Shown here piece after piece: positions 25,787 to 41,345 of a DNA stretch of 64,000 bases. Source of the DNA: Schlesneria sp. (lineage in GTDB: Bacteria; Planctomycetota; Planctomycetia; Planctomycetales; Planctomycetaceae). The DNA is taken from assembly GCA_028291515.1 (NCBI GenBank), contig JAQGHU010000044.1, positions 62,001 through 126,000 of the forward strand, written 5' to 3'. Numbering within the stretch: position 1 is the first letter of the stretch; every line of letters begins with the position of its first letter. A program made the position numbers and the translations under genes. The notes under the pieces were generated by a model that worked only from the letters and a program-made list of their open reading frames with translations, ran no database searches and was not told the origin of the DNA.

Positions 25787-26869
25787 CTATTTTCCAACAC
25801 CCGTGCCGGCGATCGCGGATCGCATCTGCGTGTCGGCCTGGACGTTCTTCAATTCATAGTAATCGACCAGTCCTAATGACTGATTGCGGAACGCTTCCGC
25901 GATGGCCACCGGAACCTGGGCTTCGGCGAGCACCACTTCGGCTCGATTCTTCTGCACGTTCGCAACCATTTCCTGTTCGCGAGCGGTAAAGTCGGCTCGG
26001 CGTTGTTCGGCCTTGGCCTGGGCAACTCGCATGTCGGCTTCGGCCTGATCGGCCATCAAGCGAGCCCCAATGTTTTCTCCCACATCAATATCGGCGATAT
26101 CGATCGAGACGATTTCGAAGGCTGTTTGCGCTTCCAACCCTTGATTGAGCACCGTTTCCGAGATCATCTCGGGGTTTTCGAGCACCATTTTGTACGAAGC
26201 TGTTTTGCCGATCGCCTGCACAATCCCTTGGCCGACGCGTGCGATAATTGTTTCCTCTGTCGCCCCGCCGATCAACTGGCGAATGTTTGTACGGACTGTC
26301 ACGCGGGCACGAGATCGCAGCAGAATGCCATCAGCGGCGACGGCGTCGAGCGTACCAGCCCCTTTTTTCGGATCGGGACAGTCGATCACCTTGGGATAGA
26401 CACTGGTACGGACGGCTTCGAGCACATCACGACCAGCGAGATCAATCGCCTGAGCGGTCTGCCAGTCGAGATCAATGTTCGCTCGATGAGCCGCCACGAG
26501 CGAGCGAATGACGTTCGGCACATTTCCACCAGCCAGGTAATGCGATTCAAGGTCTCGTGTCGAGATCGGATAGATCTCTGTCAGTCCTGCCTGAACCGCC
26601 GTGATTTTGGCTCGCACAATCACCGTCGGATTCACACGTCGGATCGACATCAAGACCAGTTGCAGGAACGAGATTCCTGCGTTGGTCATATAGCATTGGA
26701 TCCAGAGTCCGATGTACCTCGCGAAGATCGCAAAGAAGATCAGGACGACAAAGAACAACACGGCGGCAACGCCAATGAGCGCTCCCGTGGGAAGCTGAGC
26801 CAGGATCAGCGAATTCGGCATGGGGAACTCGTCTGCTTTCAGGTAGTCGATAAAAGTTCGGTTCGGCAT
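25787..26869 (-). CDS. floA: Flotillin-like protein FloA (UPF0365/YqfA family)
   Basis: 360 residues. One N-terminal hydrophobic helix (about 28-52) is followed by the FloA signature [22 protein letters not shown], then [43 protein letters not shown] and a charged heptad-rich helix ([20 protein letters not shown]). Flotillins organise functional membrane microdomains and are usually encoded beside an NfeD protein, as here (nfeD starts 0.7 kb upstream). The length exceeds the usual 330 mostly at the N-terminus, so the second ATG at 26821 is a reasonable alternative start. Neither start has a strong ribosome-binding site. Confidence 0.92.
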
Positions 26870-26994: not shown

Positions 26995-27606
26995 TTAACC
27001 CTGCGGGATCTCAAAGTCAAGCCGCGACGGAGGTTCTGTCGAGGTGCCGGCATTGACAGCAGGCCGTTCGGCGGGTCGGACCAACAGACGAGTACCGTGG
27101 ACTTCAATCACTTCCACCGACTTTTCGGCGTCGATGATGATCCCTTCCGAAATGGCATGCAGTCGTTCGCCATTGACCACGACCAGTCCACCTGGCGTTA
27201 GTGGCGAGACCGTCTGACCATACTGGCCAATTAATTCTTGCAAGTGTCTGGTTCCGGCAGCGAATGGCGTCAGGTGTTCGGCATCCGGACCTTCGAGCAA
27301 GATCTTCTTCCCCATCGATGTTTTGGGAAGAACATAAAAGGCCGTGCCGAGAGCCGTCGGGACCAGGACCAGGATCGCTCCGCAAAATGCAATGAAGTAA
27401 TTCGGATGAGTCGTTCCCCACGCGCGGTAGGCGAAGACCACCGACATCACTAGCGAGACGAACGTAATGATCCCGAGCAGACCGCCGGATGGAATGAATA
27501 CTTCGGCGACCAGAATGCCAATGCCGGTCAGCAGCAACAAAATCGCAAAGGTGGCGTTCGAGTCCATGACGTTCGGAAGCAACTCTGCAAGATCGGAAAC
27601 CCGCAT
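26995..27606 (-). CDS. nfeD: NfeD-family membrane protein, short form
   Basis: 203 residues. Three hydrophobic helices in the first 110 residues (FAILLLLTGIGILVAEVFIP, IITFVSLVMSVVFAY, NYFIAFCGAILVLVPTAL) are followed by a soluble domain with GQYGQTVSPLTPGGLVVVNG and IIIDAEKSVEVIEVHGTRL, the NfeD OB-fold. It lacks the ClpP-class protease domain of long NfeD proteins. It pairs with FloA downstream (125 bp spacer). The start at 27606 opens an operon of four genes. Confidence 0.88.
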   Translation of the reverse strand: MRVSDLAELLPNVMDSNATFAILLLLTGIGILVAEVFIPSGGLLGIITFVSLVMSVVFAYRAWGTTHPNYFIAFCGAILVLVPTALGTAFYVLPKTSMGKKILLEGPDAEHLTPFAAGTRHLQELIGQYGQTVSPLTPGGLVVVNGERLHAISEGIIIDAEKSVEVIEVHGTRLLVRPAERPAVNAGTSTEPPSRLDFEIPQG

Positions 27607-31349: not shown

Positions 31350-31748
31350 ATGATGAAGAAACTGCGCATTCTCGCGCTCGGTGTCGTCATTTCCACCGCC
31401 GTTTGGCCCACTTCCTGTGAGGCGTATGTGCGTCATCTGCGTCTGCCGCTGGCAGGATGTCACAAGTACGCAGTCGGCAAAGGGTCTGTCACTTTTGCTC
31501 AGAATTACAGCGATGCGGTACGCGATGGCGGAGGCAGTTTGATCGTGGAAGTCAGCAACGTCCCGCTTCCTGCTGGAACGAACCTGGAAGTCCTGGTTCA
31601 TGGCAAGCAAGTCGGCACGTTGATGCTAGACAAAGAACGAAACGGCCGCATGGTCCTGGCATCGACAACGAAGCAGGGGATCCCGCAATTGACGGAAGCG
31701 TCCATTGTGACGGTCAGACTGCCCGCCGGCGTGCGGGTTCTGTGGTAA
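31350..31748 (+). CDS. Small secreted protein of unknown function
   Basis: 132 residues with a signal peptide (MKKLRILALGVVISTAVWP) cleaved near TSCEA. The mature part is beta-rich (LRLPLAGCHKYAVGKG, NLEVLVHGKQVGTLMLD, ASIVTVRLPAGVRVLW) with one Cys after the signal. No family is recognised. It lies 0.2 kb upstream of the ATPase-HflK fusion in the same orientation; whether the two are co-transcribed is unclear. Confidence 0.65.
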   Translation: MMKKLRILALGVVISTAVWPTSCEAYVRHLRLPLAGCHKYAVGKGSVTFAQNYSDAVRDGGGSLIVEVSNVPLPAGTNLEVLVHGKQVGTLMLDKERNGRMVLASTTKQGIPQLTEASIVTVRLPAGVRVLW

Positions 31749-31938: not shown

Positions 31939-34900
31939 ATGCACTACATCCCTGAATCCACTTGCGAGATGCTGCGCGGCGATCCGACGGCGACCGGCAG
32001 TCAGACTCGCAGCAATTTTCATTATCTCTCGGCGCCGCTGTATGTTCTGACGGCGATCGTCGCTGCGCTACTGGTGGCCGACTGGCTGCTCGGGAACGGG
32101 GCGCCGGTCGCGTCGAGAACTGCAGGTTGGCTGCCGGCGGGGTGGCCGAACACACTGTTTGGCTATCGGCTGGCCTTGGTGGCGGCGGTGCTGGGCGGGG
32201 CACGGATCCTGTATCACGCGCTGGATGGGCTGCTGTCCGGACGAGTCGGGGCCGATCTGGCCCTGACGATTGCGTGTCTAGCCGCGATTGTGTTGGGCGA
32301 GCACCAGACCGCGGGATTGGTCGTGGTGATCTCTCTGATTGGCGAAAGCCTGGAGGGGTACACGATCGATCGGGCTCGGTGGGCCGTAAGGCAGACGTTT
32401 GCGCTGCAGCCCGCGATGGCTCATCTGACGCAGGAAGGCCGCGAGAGGGACGTGCCGATTGCGGAAGTTCGCGTCGGCGATTTTGTCGTAGTCCGACCGG
32501 GCGAACGGATCCCGGCAGACGGCAAGGTGGTGTCGGGAGCATCCGCTGTCGACCAGAGTGCCTTCACGGGTGAGAGCCTGCCAATCGACAAATCTGCCGG
32601 GGACAAAGTCTTCGCCGGGACACTTAACCAGTTCGGTTCGCTCACCGTCGTCGCCGAACAAATCGGTATCAACACGGCGCTGGCTCGTGTGGCGGATCTG
32701 GTGGGATCTGCTTCGTCTCGCAAAGCGGATCTAGAACGGATCGTCGACAAGCTGGCTCGTTGGTTTTTGCCCGCAGTCTTGTTGGCGGCGTTCTTCACGT
32801 TGGTTGGTTGGCGAATCGGCGCTGGTTCGTGGCAGCGCGGTGTGATCCCGGCCCTTAGCGTGTTGGTCGTGGCGTGTCCTTGTCCGCTTGTCCTGGCGAC
32901 GCCAGCTGCAGTCATGGCGGCGCTGGCCTGGCTGGCTCGACGAGGCGTTGTCGTGCGCGGCTCGCAGTCTCTGGAGAGACTGGCTCGCGTCGATACGTTT
33001 GCCTTCGACAAGACGGGGACGTTGACTCAGGGAGCGTTGGCACTCGGCGAGATCGTTCCGACAGCCGGGCTTTCGGCGGAAGAAGTCTTGCGAGTTGCCG
33101 CGATTGCGGAGCGGCAAAGCGAACATCTGTTGGCGCGGCTACTTGTCTCCACAGCAGATCAGCGCGGACTGACTACTGTCGCGCCGGTCGAGTTTGAGTC
33201 GTTCGCTGGGGCGGGTGTGGTCGCGAAGGTGCGTGATCATGATTTGGGCGGAACGGGCGACGCTTCGTCTCTTCGAACTGTCGTGGTTGGCAATCGACGG
33301 ATGCTGGATCGCGGCGAGATCGCGTTCTCGGTCGAGATTGCCGCGTTGGTGAAGAGTCGCGAAGCGGCCGGGGAGTCTCCCCTCGTCGTCGCGATCGATG
33401 GTCAGGTTGTCGGTGTGATTGGGGTACGAGAGACCGTTCGCGCGGAATCTCAGCAGGTGCTGCAGGATCTGGCGGCAGCAGGGATTACTCGATTCGCTCT
33501 GCTGACGGGTGATAGGCCTCAACCCGCGGATGCCGTGGTCGTGGCGATGGGGTTGTTTGATCATGTCGCGACCGAGCAGCTTCCGGCGGATAAGGCCAAG
33601 TGGATCGAAGAGACGCAAAAGGCAGGTCACCGCGTGGCAATGGTCGGCGACGGCGTCAACGACGCTCCGGCGCTCGCCACTGCGGACGTGGGCCTGGCAC
33701 TCGGCCGAGCGGGTGCGGACCTCACTGCGGAAGCGGGTGATATCCTGTTGTTGGGCGATCCGCTGCGTCCGCTGCCCGGGTTGCTAAGGCTGTCACGAGC
33801 TTTGGTTCGCAACATCTGGCAAAGCATCATTCTGTTCGCGTTCGGCTTCAACGGGCTGGGTGTCTTGGCGAGTTCGCTGGGGTGGCTCAGTCCTGTTGGC
33901 GCGGCGTTGTTTCACGAGCTGGCGTCTTTAGCCGTGATGGCGAACGCTATGCGGCTATTGTGGTTTGACGGCTGGTCCAATACCGCCACCGTGCGCTGGC
34001 AGTCGGGCTTGCTCACCGCGGCCGATCGCTTTGCCGAAGTCCTATCGCCGTCGCGCTGGATCTTCTGGTTCATCGAGCACTGGCAGGTGACTGCCAAGCT
34101 GACCGGAGCCGCGGCCTTCGTACTGTGGATGCTGTCGGGAGTGGTCCAGGTCGAAGACGACCAGCAGGCGCTGGTCACGCGATTCGGACGCTATCGCGCC
34201 ACACTCGATGCGGGACTCGCCTGGCGCTGGCCGTGGCCGCTCGAACGAGTCACTCGCGAACCGGTCGATCGAGTCCACAGCGTGGGGATCGGGTTTCGCA
34301 CGACGGACGTATCGCCGAGTCGTAAACGGACGGATGCTTTGGGGCCGGGGATCGTGGAGTGGACCAGCTCGCACGACGATCGCGAATCAGCAGCATCGGC
34401 GGATGAATCGCTGCTGTTAACGGCGGACGAAGTCCCAGTCGAACTGACTGCTGAAGTGACGTATCGAATTCGCGATCTCAAGCAGTACACGTTTGGCGGC
34501 ACTCGCCGGCCCGAGAGTGTCGTGCGAGCCGCGGCTGAAAGCGTGTTGCGCGACCTGGCGGCGCAATCGTCGCTGGATCAATTGCTGACGGATCGCCGCG
34601 CGGCGCTGGAGCGGAAATCGCTGGTCTGGCTGCAGGAACGAATCGACACCTACGGCCTGGGCGTGCAGGTGCTGGACCTGCAGTGGTTGGACGTGCATCC
34701 TCCCAAGGGAGTCGTTCCCGCGTATCGACAGGTGGCGGATGCACTGGAAGAACGCGAACTGCTGATCAATGAAGCCGACGCGTACGCCGACCGGATTTTG
34801 CTGGGAGCAGTCGGCGAAGCAGCCGTCCGCCAGTTGAAGCAATCGACGCAGCCACCCGTCGACGGAACGACGCGTCACGAATGGAAATTGGATGACACCT

Positions 34901-35241
34901 TATGGCAGCAACTGATGCAAATTCAGACGGATGGCCAAACGCTGCTGTCGGGGAACGCCGCCGCGATACTGAATGAGGCCAGAGCGAATGCCGTGAAGCG
35001 GACATCCTCGGCGGAAGCGGATGCAGGCCGACTGCAGAAGTTACTCGCCCAGTATCGCAAGTCTCCGCAGTTGACGATGTCGAACTTGTACTGGGACGTG
35101 GTCACGCAAACCTTGGCGTCGCGTCCGTTGACGATCATCGATCCCCAAGCGGCAAACCGACAGCAGATCTGGTTAGGCGAACCGCCAGTCGCGTCGCCGC
35201 CATTGCCAGTAGCGCCAACGGTCGAGCCTGAGCCCGAGTGA
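31939..35241 (+). CDS. Fusion: P1B-type metal-translocating ATPase with C-terminal HflK-like SPFH domain
   Basis: 1100 residues in one uninterrupted frame. Residues 30-680 form a heavy-metal P-type ATPase without an N-terminal metal-binding (CxxC) domain: TGES (210-213), transmembrane CPC (313-315), DKTGT (357-361), GDGVNDAPAL (570-579) and a late helix with HE (659-660) before MANAMRLL. The nucleotide-binding HP motif reads SEHLLA, with the Pro lost. After a new membrane helix (720-737) comes an HflK-type domain: VEDDQQALVTRFGRY, GLAWRWPWPLERV, LLTADEVPVELTAEVTYRIRD, then a helical stretch and a Pro-rich tail. HflK normally controls the FtsH protease with HflC; neither partner is in the window. 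The metal cannot be fixed. No strong ribosome-binding site precedes the ATG. Confidence 0.9.
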   Translation: MHYIPESTCEMLRGDPTATGSQTRSNFHYLSAPLYVLTAIVAALLVADWLLGNGAPVASRTAGWLPAGWPNTLFGYRLALVAAVLGGARILYHALDGLLSGRVGADLALTIACLAAIVLGEHQTAGLVVVISLIGESLEGYTIDRARWAVRQTFALQPAMAHLTQEGRERDVPIAEVRVGDFVVVRPGERIPADGKVVSGASAVDQSAFTGESLPIDKSAGDKVFAGTLNQFGSLTVVAEQIGINTALARVADLVGSASSRKADLERIVDKLARWFLPAVLLAAFFTLVGWRIGAGSWQRGVIPALSVLVVACPCPLVLATPAAVMAALAWLARRGVVVRGSQSLERLARVDTFAFDKTGTLTQGALALGEIVPTAGLSAEEVLRVAAIAERQSEHLLARLLVSTADQRGLTTVAPVEFESFAGAGVVAKVRDHDLGGTGDASSLRTVVVGNRRMLDRGEIAFSVEIAALVKSREAAGESPLVVAIDGQVVGVIGVRETVRAESQQVLQDLAAAGITRFALLTGDRPQPADAVVVAMGLFDHVATEQLPADKAKWIEETQKAGHRVAMVGDGVNDAPALATADVGLALGRAGADLTAEAGDILLLGDPLRPLPGLLRLSRALVRNIWQSIILFAFGFNGLGVLASSLGWLSPVGAALFHELASLAVMANAMRLLWFDGWSNTATVRWQSGLLTAADRFAEVLSPSRWIFWFIEHWQVTAKLTGAAAFVLWMLSGVVQVEDDQQALVTRFGRYRATLDAGLAWRWPWPLERVTREPVDRVHSVGIGFRTTDVSPSRKRTDALGPGIVEWTSSHDDRESAASADESLLLTADEVPVELTAEVTYRIRDLKQYTFGGTRRPESVVRAAAESVLRDLAAQSSLDQLLTDRRAALERKSLVWLQERIDTYGLGVQVLDLQWLDVHPPKGVVPAYRQVADALEERELLINEADAYADRILLGAVGEAAVRQLKQSTQPPVDGTTRHEWKLDDTLWQQLMQIQTDGQTLLSGNAAAILNEARANAVKRTSSAEADAGRLQKLLAQYRKSPQLTMSNLYWDVVTQTLASRPLTIIDPQAANRQQIWLGEPPVASPPLPVAPTVEPEPE

Positions 35242-38484: not shown

Positions 38485-39371
38485 GGGCGGGTTCTCCGGT
38501 TGGCAGATGAACTCATCGCGGCGCCGCAAAGAACGCGAACACCGGAAGGATCACTTGGAATCGTATCAGACGCGGTGGCGACTTCCAACGAGATCGAATG
38601 GTCGTAGCACAATTCACCTGCTTGACGTAACCAGTCACACCTCGCGCACACCTACTCCGTGGTTCAACTTCTTGAGGATGAAGAGTGGGCCACGCATCTC
38701 AAGAATTCGCACGAATCAGGATGAGGCTGTTGTGTGAAGCGTTTGCTTCGATCGGTGGAGATTCGTCTGATGCGTGGTCCCTTCTTCTCGCGCCGCGAAA
38801 GAAGCCTGTGAGACAATCAGCGATGCCACGGCTCGACCCGGGAAGACAGTGGATCTCAGTTGGCATAACCAATTGTCCGGCGGCTGTATTAAAGGAATCG
38901 CTTTTCCCCAGTACTTCTGATTCCACCGTGGTCGGGCCAAATTGGCCAAGGAGAGCCTTCTGAAGCTGTTTTCATAGTGATTCAAATCTGGGCTCGTGTC
39001 GGTCAGATTTTGATCGGTCGCATTCTCGCCCAAGCGGACTACACGTCCTTCGACCGCCAACGAATAATGACATGATGGGAATCGCGTTGTTGACCACGGA
39101 AGCGACGCAACCTGTGAGGGGGGGACTTAGAACGAATCCCTCGGATTAATCGGATTTCTTTATCAACAGGTTGCGCTTTTCAGTCAAACTCATGGTTCGC
39201 AACTGCGTAAATTAAATAAGAGATTTGTACGAGAAAAAGGACGCTGGCTCCTTACTCGCCGCAACCTGCGAAGAAGCAGAGGTTGCGAATATCTGTCAGC
39301 GGTTCAAACGTTCGCTTACGGTCATCAGGGCGACCCGCACAGAGAACGCGAGAGAAACAGGGGAGGTCATG
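38485..39371. other. Long intergenic region with no supported gene
   Basis: 887 bp between divergent genes. The short open frames here have no ribosome-binding site and read as unnatural peptides. It holds scattered repeat-like text (gaattcgcacgaatcagg near 38700, related to text near 58098). The last 200 bp, around 39150-39230, are AT-rich and probably carry the promoter of the glycine-rich protein gene. No element could be defined. Confidence 0.5.
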
Positions 39372-41345
39372 ATGGTATCTCGACTCGTTCGCAATTGTGG
39401 ATTGGCGCTCGCGATGGTCTGCGCAATACCCGGTTTGACCCTCGCACACGGTGGTGGTGGACACGGTGGCGGAGGCGGGCATGGGGGAGGCGGCGGCCAC
39501 GGTGGTGGCGGTGGACATTTTGGAGGCGGCGGCGGCCACATGGGCGGTGGTGGCATGCACATGGGTGGCGGCGGAATGCATATGGGCGGCGGTCATATGG
39601 GTGGCGGGGCCATGCACATGGGCGGTGGTGGGATGCATATGGGTGGCGGCAACATGGGCGGTGCCCGTGTTGGCGGCATGGGTGGCGGTGCCATGCATAT
39701 GGGCGGCGGAATGAACCATGGGCTCGGTGGATCGAATATTCATAGTCTAGGCGGAGCACGAATCGGTTCCAATGCCGGTGTCGGCCGCGCTGGCGGTTCG
39801 TTCCTCGGAAACCACGGCAGCATGGGGAATGCTGGTGGCCTGCGATCCACAAACTTGTCGCACATGAGTGGTGCAAATGGTCTTAATCGCGGCGGCTCAT
39901 TCCTGGGTAACCACGGATCGGTCGGCGGCATGTCGGGTGCCAGACTGTCGACCGCCATGCATAATGGGAATAGTGGTTCGTTCCTCGGTAATCACGGAGG
40001 AATCGGTGGTGGACGCGGCGGGTTGGCCTTGGCGTCTCATAGTGGGGCCGGTGGATTCGGGAACCACGGACTTGGGGGAGTCGGCGGCAACTCGTTCGCG
40101 GGTCGTCACGGCGGCTCATTCAACGGTGTTGGTAATAGCAATCGACTGAACAGCACCAGCTTCAACCGAGTGAACAACACGAACGTCGTCAATAACTCGT
40201 TCGGGCGCGGTGGGAACTGGGGTTACGGTGGCTATGGTGGATACGGTCGTGGCTATGGTGGTTACGGCGGCTACGGTCGAGGTTTCGGATATGGGGGATA
40301 TGGCCTCGGCCGCTATGGCTACGGATTTGGGTATCCGTATGGCGGCTATGGTTACGGTGGATATGGCTATGGGCGTGGTTTCGGCGGCGGCTTGCTGACC
40401 GGCCTGCTGTTCGGGCTTGGTTATGGTGGCTACGGATACGGTGGATATGGGGGATACGGTGGCTATGGCTACGGAGGGTACGGCGGATATGGGGGCTACG
40501 GTGGGTATGGAGGATATGGATCAGGTTACGGCTATGGTGGCTACGGCTATCCGTCATACGGATACAGCAACTACGGCAATGGATACGGATATGGGAGCAG
40601 CTATGGCTACGCCCCGTATGCCACGGTCGTAAACCCAACACCAGTTGTGGCTGCTTCTGTCGATCCTTCGTTGACGAATGTCGCCGCGACAACGCCAAAC
40701 AATACCTCGACGGCCGCGAATAACTTTGCCGACCAGGGTGAAACCGCGTTCAGGAACGGCGACTACAATGCCGCCGCCTACTCACTGCAGCATGCAGTCG
40801 TCGATAATCCAAGTCCCGTTCTAATCCTGATGCATGCTCAAGCCTTGTTCGCAACCGGCAAATATCCGGAAGCGGCAGGTGCGACGCAGGCCGCGATGAG
40901 CCAACTGCCGAAGGATCAATGGGGCGTTGTCGTGAAGAACTACAAAGAGCTATACGGCAAGGTGGGCGACTACACAAGCCAACTGCGAGGTCTGGAAGCG
41001 GCTGCCAAGGACAAGCCAAGCGACCCAGCCCTGCGGTTCCTGTTGGGTTACCACTACGGCTACCTGGGATATCCTCAGCAGGCCGTCGATCAGTTGAATC
41101 AGGCCGTTGGGTTGTCGGCTCAGGACGAAATGGCCAAGCAACTGCGAGACGAAATGCAATCCAAGTTGCCGGGCGCAGCGGTCACGGTTCCTGTTCCGTC
41201 CGCGGTTCCTTCAGCCCCAGTAGTTCCACCATCTCCGACGCTGACACCGCCCGCATCGGCTGCATTGAAGAAGTTTGGGTTGAACCTGTCGGCGCTAATG
41301 CCGAATGGAGCTGCTCATTCCCTTTCAGGAGCATTGGCAAGCTAG
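39372..41345 (+). CDS. Secreted Gly/His/Met- and Gly/Tyr-rich protein with C-terminal TPR-like domain
   Basis: About 657 residues. Start: the second ATG of a pair (39372), 5 nt after GGAGG. A signal peptide ends near LTLAHG. Then come about 100 residues of HGGGG, HMGGGG and MHMGGG units; three GSFLGNHG units spaced 30-40 residues apart; about 130 residues of GYGG and YGRGYGGYG repeats; and a Ser/Thr/Pro linker. The last 200 residues form a TPR-like helical domain (ANNFADQGETAFRNGDYNAA, LGYHYGYLGYPQQAVDQLNQ). The dense His and Met suggest metal (copper or nickel) binding; the Tyr/Gly part resembles surface or spore-coat low-complexity proteins. Both are inferences. Confidence 0.85.
   Translation: MVSRLVRNCGLALAMVCAIPGLTLAHGGGGHGGGGGHGGGGGHGGGGGHFGGGGGHMGGGGMHMGGGGMHMGGGHMGGGAMHMGGGGMHMGGGNMGGARVGGMGGGAMHMGGGMNHGLGGSNIHSLGGARIGSNAGVGRAGGSFLGNHGSMGNAGGLRSTNLSHMSGANGLNRGGSFLGNHGSVGGMSGARLSTAMHNGNSGSFLGNHGGIGGGRGGLALASHSGAGGFGNHGLGGVGGNSFAGRHGGSFNGVGNSNRLNSTSFNRVNNTNVVNNSFGRGGNWGYGGYGGYGRGYGGYGGYGRGFGYGGYGLGRYGYGFGYPYGGYGYGGYGYGRGFGGGLLTGLLFGLGYGGYGYGGYGGYGGYGYGGYGGYGGYGGYGGYGSGYGYGGYGYPSYGYSNYGNGYGYGSSYGYAPYATVVNPTPVVAASVDPSLTNVAATTPNNTSTAANNFADQGETAFRNGDYNAAAYSLQHAVVDNPSPVLILMHAQALFATGKYPEAAGATQAAMSQLPKDQWGVVVKNYKELYGKVGDYTSQLRGLEAAAKDKPSDPALRFLLGYHYGYLGYPQQAVDQLNQAVGLSAQDEMAKQLRDEMQSKLPGAAVTVPVPSAVPSAPVVPPSPTLTPPASAALKKFGLNLSALMPNGAAHSLSGALAS

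Follow-up and report, generated by a model that had tools for sequence, protein, structure and literature searches.

A P1B-type metal ATPase fused to HflK in planctomycetes, and related fusions of metal transporters to HflK

A gene of the planctomycete Schlesneria sp. joins a P1B-type transition-metal ATPase to an HflK-type SPFH protein within one uninterrupted reading frame. It lies at positions 31939-35241 of the forward strand in the window, the 64,000-nucleotide stretch of DNA analysed here (contig JAQGHU010000044.1, positions 62,001 to 126,000). The fusion is conserved in relatives, occurs in operons with hflC and a second, plain hflK (hflK_B), and has equivalents in which other metal transporters are joined to HflK. 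The explanation that we consider probable is that a pump has been built covalently into the HflK/HflC cage by way of its C-terminal HflK subunit; co-assembly, topology, stoichiometry, metal and direction of transport are the parts of this explanation that we infer.

A conserved fusion of a P1B-type ATPase to HflK

A preliminary description, made from the sequence letters and a list of open frames, had proposed a single frame of 1100 residues in which a metal-ATPase core is followed by a second membrane helix and an HflK-type domain. The frame at 31939-35241 (+) indeed runs for 1100 codons without an internal stop, and one reverse frame translated over the locus is interrupted by stops. Pfam matches on the protein are E1-E2_ATPase (residues 156-335, E = 4.5e-55), Hydrolase (351-583, 4.6e-26) and Band_7 (737-948, 5.4e-21). 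In NCBIfam the heavy-metal P-type ATPase family TIGR01525 is matched at 523 bits (cut-off 346) and the HflK family TIGR01933, with the whole protein, at 164.5 bits (cut-off 159.4); the best single piece of the fusion in a six-frame search scored 134.8, below the latter cut-off. The features of the gene are as follows.

31939-35241, + strand: P1B-ATPase-HflK fusion gene, 1100 residues (open frame, Pfam and NCBIfam matches, 20 further fused relatives)
31939-31959, + strand: conserved N-terminal peptide MHYIPES, residues 1-7 (Y.PES in 16 of 17 aligned fusions, L025 being without it)
32254-33957, + strand: P1B-ATPase core, residues 106-673 (TIGR01525, AlphaFold2); two of the eight predicted pump helices lie upstream of it
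32875-32883, + strand: CPC metal-site motif, residues 313-315 (the same in all 21 fused ATPases)
33007-33021, + strand: DKTGT phosphorylation motif, residues 357-361 (first three residues in the conservation count)
33646-33669, + strand: GDGVNDAP motif, residues 570-577 (residues 570-575 in the conservation count)
33913-33918, + strand: H659-E660 in the last pump helix (H in 21 of 21; E in 18, Q in 3), unlike E. coli CopA and ZntA
34090-34146, + strand: ninth membrane helix, predicted to serve as an anchor of HflK type, the SPFH domain then lying in the periplasm (AlphaFold2 helix 715-732, alignment with E. coli HflK)
34147-34782, + strand: SPFH (Band_7) domain, residues 737-948 (Pfam, sequence and fold searches)
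34360-34374, + strand: WTSSH, residues 808-812, a W-x3-H motif in the loop next to the site that touches FtsH in E. coli HflK (motif comparison)
34783-35238, + strand: HflK coiled-coil arm with an inserted Trp-containing segment, and C-terminal region (alignment with E. coli HflK)

The C-terminal half has the complete HflK layout of anchor helix, SPFH domain, coiled-coil arm and C-terminal region, as judged by alignment and fold search. Its alignment with E. coli HflK starts at the anchor helix and extends through the whole arm, and together with the TIGR01933 match this bears out the second helix and HflK-type domain first described; a C-terminal part that could not be aligned to SPFH proteins would have refuted that description. 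The closest solved chains by sequence are HflK (7vhq, 7vhp); the best solved match of a model of the HflK part in a fold search is HflK of the E. coli cage (9cz2, E = 1.4e-20).

A scan of contigs kept 78 loci, of which 17, on planctomycete contigs (L009-L025), carry the fusion gene; 16 are full-length in one frame and L022 is truncated by its contig end. A profile search of 392 planctomycete genomes, with two candidates scored for each genome listed, found the fusion in five, the window genome included, while ten further genomes above the profile threshold have unfused ATPases. The resulting comparison set comprises 21 complete fused frames (that of the window, the 16 and four from other genomes), all planctomycete, and the join, whose conservation in relatives had been left to be checked, is kept in each. 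Within our sample the fusion is confined to planctomycetes. It was found in none of 299 genomes of Pseudomonadota at E <= 1e-170, with a profile that does find matches in planctomycetes and with no known-positive Pseudomonadota genome as a control, and none of the best 5000 plasmid records covers 80% of the fusion query.

We also considered artefacts. A chance open frame was ruled out, the domain matches being significant and conserved. An assembly error is very unlikely because of the 16 full-length frames on planctomycete contigs and the four from other genomes, one of which sits on a single 7.28 Mb contig; it was discarded, as was a pseudogene, on the strength of these fused frames and of purifying selection. 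Between the window gene and L009 (96% identical, synonymous divergence dS about 0.5) the ratio of nonsynonymous to synonymous substitution (dN/dS) is 0.029 in the ATPase, 0.112 in the 55-codon join and 0.051 in the SPFH domain with the arm; in unsaturated comparisons with remoter relatives the value for the join is 0.29 to 0.41. Judged by these ratios, both halves of the fusion are under purifying selection.

Partner genes, other transporter-HflK fusions and their relationships

An hflC gene adjoins the fusion in 13 of the 22 fusion genomes, and 11 of these 13 also have a second hflK. The order is hflC-hflK-fusion in L010, L011, L012, L014 and L022, fusion-hflC-hflK in L017, L018, L019, L021, L141 and L142, and fusion-hflC in L024 and L025 (L025 near a contig end), with intergenic gaps of -11 to 79 bp at the 12 loci measured. 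Six of seven putative hflC genes scanned were above the HflC cut-off and the seventh, cut by its contig, was below; for nine adjacent second SPFH genes the best match was HflK in eight and HflC in one (L025), all below cut-off. At E <= 1e-20, hflC is present in all 22 fusion genomes, as a single copy in 19. The background in the phylum is 132 of 392 genomes, compared with 5/5 fusion genomes in the same sample (Fisher p = 0.004), counts that are not independent events as the fusion genomes are related. No further ATPase gene was seen in the fusion clusters read, the ATPase being part of the fusion itself.

Band_7 is matched four times in the window genome: by the fusion, by an HflC and the HflK-like protein next to it on a different contig, and by a further SPFH protein. 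It also encodes two full-length FtsH proteins, so that both partners sought elsewhere in the genome, HflC and FtsH, are there. Adjacent pairs of Band_7 proteins with frames of about 515-590 residues recur in fusion-bearing genomes (G393:C229, G394:C46, G395:C122, G405:C176, G396:C26 and G400:C80).

HflK is fused to membrane domains of other kinds as well, and we write X-HflK for a fusion to membrane domain X. A survey of the phylum found hflK in at least 119 of 392 genomes at E <= 1e-30. Eighteen regions with long HflK frames were examined, and 15 of them (all except L162, L163 and L164) are clusters of X-HflK, hflC and hflK, in which the membrane domain is SO_0444-like in ten, CDF in two and unnamed in three. 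The CDF-HflK and unnamed-domain clusters additionally have a separate P1B-ATPase nearby. Pfam, applied to nine X-HflK proteins, found ArsP_1 with Band_7 in four, Cation_efflux with Band_7 in two, and Band_7 alone after a membrane domain in three; NCBIfam placed 4/4 in the SO_0444 family of Cu/Zn efflux transporters and 2/2 in the CDF family, above cut-off. The ZT_dimer domain is missing from all three CDF-HflK fusions (L157, L158, L207) and present in the separate CDF proteins of L193 and L202; in these fusions the SPFH part may stand as if replacing the CDF dimerisation domain. These findings point to a family of transporter-HflK fusions, beyond the one fusion first described.

Directly upstream of SO_0444-HflK fusions there is a ZIP-like gene (L148 3-776, L153 6502-7362, L156 655-1548, and L180, L182 and L183), a label given by Pfam for L156 and by eye or local profile for the others. 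His-rich stretches occur in two X-HflK proteins, with 15 His in a 61-residue SPFH loop in L152 (2294-4288) and another stretch inside the SO_0444-HflK of L150 (1599-3815), and by their composition they hint at bound metal. As a general sign of metal such loops were dropped for want of cases: a His-rich SPFH loop (at least four His) was found in 2/16 X-HflK proteins of the hmtA type described below (L152, L178) and in 0/21 P1B fusions.

The association of hflK with metal transporters was compared between 20 lower-scoring, divergent hflK loci, chosen by score instead of at random and before their neighbours were seen, and 20 high-scoring canonical loci. Metal clusters were present at 17 of the 20 divergent loci (13 with a separate P1B-ATPase and four SO_0444-HflK fusions; not at L184, L185 and L186), whereas a P1B-ATPase, SO_0444 or ZIP gene was found at none of the 20 canonical loci within up to about 6 kb on each side (shorter at contig ends). 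At two canonical loci, L193 and L202, a separate CDF gene, confirmed by Pfam, lies on the strand opposite to hflK/hflC. With these two counted the comparison is 17/20 against 2/20 (Fisher p = 3.4e-6), and without them p = 2.6e-8, the labels coming from local profiles derived from clusters of this very type; the CDF profile among them, made from two fused proteins, detects separate CDFs poorly and possibly missed more of them on either side.

Similar clusters occur on plasmids. All ten records with a long X-HflK like that of a Klebsiella aerogenes plasmid also match the operon ATPase, and the three regions read have four adjacent genes, annotated as HflK, two as SPFH/HflC/HflK, and P-type ATPase. 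An Aquibium plasmid encodes a CDF-HflK fusion, HflC, HflK, a peptidylprolyl isomerase and a P1B-ATPase with HMA domains; its region L207 4291-14840 continues the row with PCu(A)C, SCO and DsbB-type proteins and has the look of an envelope metal island. Matches on Tistrella and Azospirillum plasmids are hflK-hflC pairs with no metal transporter annotated near them. In gene order and annotation the unnamed-domain layout, also present on proteobacterial plasmids, is similar to the hmtA cluster of Pseudomonas aeruginosa, which is linked to zinc; we call this layout hmtA-type.

In a tree of 81 ATPases, from which stretches of 380 residues or less were dropped (including the cut L022 and L168), the 21 fused ATPases form one clade with a support of 0.875 (1.0 without L141). 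At a support of 0.784 its sister is a clade of 18 operonic ATPases (0.999), three of them from proteobacterial plasmids, and one clostridial sequence branches beside this operonic clade. The ATPases of the CDF clusters L157, L158 and Aquibium lie near ZntA. An SPFH tree of 144 sequences, with HflC represented by a selection of 19, places all 19 HflC in one group, canonical HflK with E. coli HflK (0.988) and 16 hmtA-type X-HflK in a group of their own (0.966). The 21 P1B-fused HflK (0.903) group with 12 SO_0444-fused sequences (0.612) and two more (0.907).

This last grouping disagrees with a loop of the SPFH domain, in which a W-x3-H motif links the P1B fusions to the hmtA-type X-HflK. The motif is present in 20 of 21 P1B fusions (not L142) and 12 of 16 hmtA-type X-HflK (not L152, L159, L178 and L179), or 32/37 when pooled, compared with one of 107 other HflK and HflC proteins (an HflC), or four of 107 when it is accepted anywhere in the region; shuffling of the loop residues predicts 0.61/21 and 0.34/16. 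The count is inflated by relatedness, yet the motif spans planctomycetes and proteobacteria. The loop follows directly on the equivalents of R141 and E142 of E. coli HflK and is 54 residues long in the P1B fusions, compared with a median of 31.5 in canonical planctomycete HflK, which is without the motif, and 10 in E. coli.

A proposed cage around the pump, and alternative explanations

AlphaFold2 places the pump helices at residues 28-53, 78-99, 105-119, 122-154, 276-295, 299-311/315-334, 611-646 and 652-675, giving eight helices plus one anchor; hydropathy gives 6+1 for the CDF fusions, 8+1 for SO_0444 and 4+1 for the unnamed domain. Since an even number of helices precedes a single anchor, the SPFH domain is predicted to lie on the periplasmic face in all the fusion types examined. 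Stomatin domes, for comparison, stand on the cytoplasmic face.

In the cage that we propose for the window protein, the eight pump helices would end in the cytoplasm and the ninth would cross the membrane to place the SPFH domain in the periplasm, as in HflK. There it would most likely form a ring or dome together with the genome's own HflC and plain HflK_B, co-assembly with HflC being suggested by gene linkage in 13/22 genomes, and a few pumps would be held at the patch of membrane so enclosed, or within it; most simply, the pump would belong to the wall of the cage. Since there would hardly be room for twelve pumps, the other HflK places would be taken by HflK_B; the keeping of a plain HflK beside the fused one suggests such mixed rings. 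The periplasmic chamber and the W-x3-H loop would then control the access of metal to or from the pump. The earlier suggestion that the pump is assembled in a membrane microdomain fits the hflC/hflK operons around the fusions.

In the published passages considered here, FtsH is caged by HflK/C, and AQP1 and UT-B lie within domes of stomatin. The C-terminal half of the window protein has HflK as its best solved match by sequence and by fold, with the whole protein above the TIGR01933 cut-off, but E. coli HflK is a separate protein with FtsH as its known cargo, whereas here it is fused to a pump. The stomatin domes described are SPFH domes around a transporter or channel, as proposed for the fusion, but are non-covalent and eukaryotic. 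No transporter-HflK fusion was found in the titles or abstracts of top-ranked literature records, and the main text of a 2009 SPFH survey does not mention 'P-type', 'ATPase' or 'metal'.

Several observations count against a cage of this kind. In nine of the 22 fusion genomes, that of the window among them, hflC is not adjacent, and with 5/392 genomes of the phylum the fusion is rare. The full-length AlphaFold2 model, made from 17 sequences, is of low confidence (predicted local distance difference test, pLDDT, 65.8; predicted template-modelling score, pTM, 0.38), that of the HflK part, from 21 sequences, reaches pLDDT 71.7 and pTM 0.45, and the HflK fold match has template-modelling (TM) scores of only 0.41/0.58. 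Plain hydropathy recovers only six of the nine helices of the window protein.

The HflK arm might instead recruit FtsH, with proteolysis controlling the level of the pump or damaged neighbours. HflK binds FtsH in E. coli, where R141, E142 and R185 make contact (PMC13220708), and the window genome has its two full-length FtsH genes. The equivalent residues in the window protein are H/S/R, which would speak against FtsH binding, but a canonical HflK of a planctomycete departs from E. coli as well (L/K/R), and R141 and R185 are both present in the four other P1B fusions checked. With the adjoining loop longer and different in the window protein, and transporter-linked HflK standing apart from canonical HflK in the SPFH tree, we regard recruitment of FtsH as unlikely. 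It is quite improbable that HflK serves here just as a tag for oligomerisation or stability and forms no cage: since ZT_dimer is missing from the CDF-HflK fusions and HMA from the P1B fusion, the SPFH part may do no more than stand in for a soluble domain with a regulatory or dimerising role, but HflK is retained as far as its C-terminal region, arm included, and many genomes retain hflC and hflK_B beside the fusion.

A further alternative concerns direction and is compatible with the proposed cage: an hmtA-type importer may have been fused to a scaffold for uptake of zinc or copper under scarcity, which we hold possible at a little less than an even chance. The fused ATPases join the ATPases of the X-HflK/HflC/HflK/P1B operons in the tree, and both kinds of system carry the W-x3-H loop. 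The layout of these operons resembles PA2439-PA2435 of P. aeruginosa, where, in the passages seen, PA2434-PA2439 include genes annotated as HflC family, HflC and HflK beside HmtA, an atypical importer, and expression of the listed genes (PA2439-PA2435) is 5.6 to 14.4 times higher in a mutant of znuA (PMC4542158). The cluster's proteins are raised under zinc depletion, according to the authors significantly for PA2438 and PA2439 (PMC11761036), and Zur binds the PA2439 promoter, but hmtA mRNA is not zinc-repressed (PMC8531726) and a review states that import by HmtA needs confirming (PMC10393844). The hmtA cluster thus shares with the fusion loci SPFH genes annotated HflK/HflC beside a P1B-ATPase, and has zinc-linked expression, but its ATPase is a separate gene and no transporter-HflK fusion is described in those passages. 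Against the importer stand also the moderate support of the node (0.784), the clostridial sequence beside the operonic clade, a likeness to the hmtA cluster that is one of layout and annotation, and the CPC motif, which the fused ATPases keep and many operonic ones have replaced by CPS or CPG. In a 2026 study, deletion of paFlo5-7 (three SPFH genes in one operon) gave mild phenotypes, and 'HmtA' does not appear in its main text (PMC13086221); to judge by how many genes there are and how they are arranged, paFlo5-7 would be PA2437-2439.

Extending the proposed cage to the other fusions, we tentatively put forward, as a view that may well prove wrong, that at least three unrelated families (P1B-ATPase, CDF and SO_0444 permease) are caged transporters, welded to HflK and each inside an HflK/HflC dome, in which the loop beside the FtsH-contact site has turned to the handling of cargo or metal. 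If so, the dome would be a periplasmic antechamber that filters metal or hands it over. On the question of what SPFH rings do for most bacterial membrane proteins, a covalent link between transporter and SPFH has the merit of naming the cargo directly; the fusions of the three families are single-gene objects in which the coupling of cage and cargo can be tested. A caged pump would also help to explain why HflK/HflC genes stand beside hmtA, a point mentioned only in passing in the passages considered.

The pump half and the neighbouring genes

All four motifs first reported for the ATPase core, TGES, CPC, DKTGT and GDGVNDAP, are found, and the protein has the marks of a P1B-type ATPase (TGE, DKTGT, GDGxND, and CPx in a membrane helix). 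The catalytic and CPC columns checked are identical in all 21 fused ATPases except V573 (V in 13, I in 6, T in 1, L in 1); N638, H659 and S663 are invariant, and V573 and E660 vary. H396 is likewise present in all 21, followed by L in 11, P in 8 and V in 2, so the HP motif was correctly read as HL in the preliminary description but is not unusual within the clade. Pfam detects no HMA domain in the window protein, in agreement with the reported lack of an N-terminal metal-binding domain.

P1B-1 (CopA-like) ATPases are marked by YN in membrane helix 5 (M5) and MxxSS in M6, P1B-2 (ZntA-like) by Lys in M5 and DTG in M6, and P1B-4 by SPC in M4 and HEGxT in M6. The window ATPase, with FAFGFNG in M5 and FHELASLAVMAN in M6, lacks the P1B-1 signature when E. 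coli CopA is the yardstick and the P1B-2 signature when E. coli ZntA is; it lacks that of P1B-4 as well, having CPC and HELAS. In a sequence search of solved chains CopA comes closest, followed by ZntA, the best PDB matches being 3rfu and 3j08; by fold the best are 4umw and 7r0g. The window pump thus has the catalytic motifs, CPC and eight helices of CopA and ZntA, but it matches the M5/M6 signatures of neither, is without an HMA domain and is fused to HflK. The transported metal would most likely be Zn or Cu, and import and export appear about equally likely. The metal export originally proposed becomes one possibility of two, not favoured over import because the nearest ATPase clade belongs to hmtA-like four-gene operons, and HmtA is described as an importer.

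No metal clue was noticed beside the fusion gene in the frame lists of the window, no family search of the neighbours having been made. Upstream of the fusion, at a distance of about 4.3 kb and on the opposite strand, are a FloA-like flotillin gene (25787-26869, -) and an NfeD-like gene (26995-27606, -), named by eye, which may form a second raft-type system. A small gene with a signal-like start lies just upstream of the fusion (31350-31748, +) and looks similar, by eye, to one in L013 (5476-5901, +). The gene at 39225-41345 (+) encodes a 706-residue protein, possibly metal-binding, that has long repeats rich in Gly/His/Met and in Gly/Tyr and differs from them in its C-terminal part.

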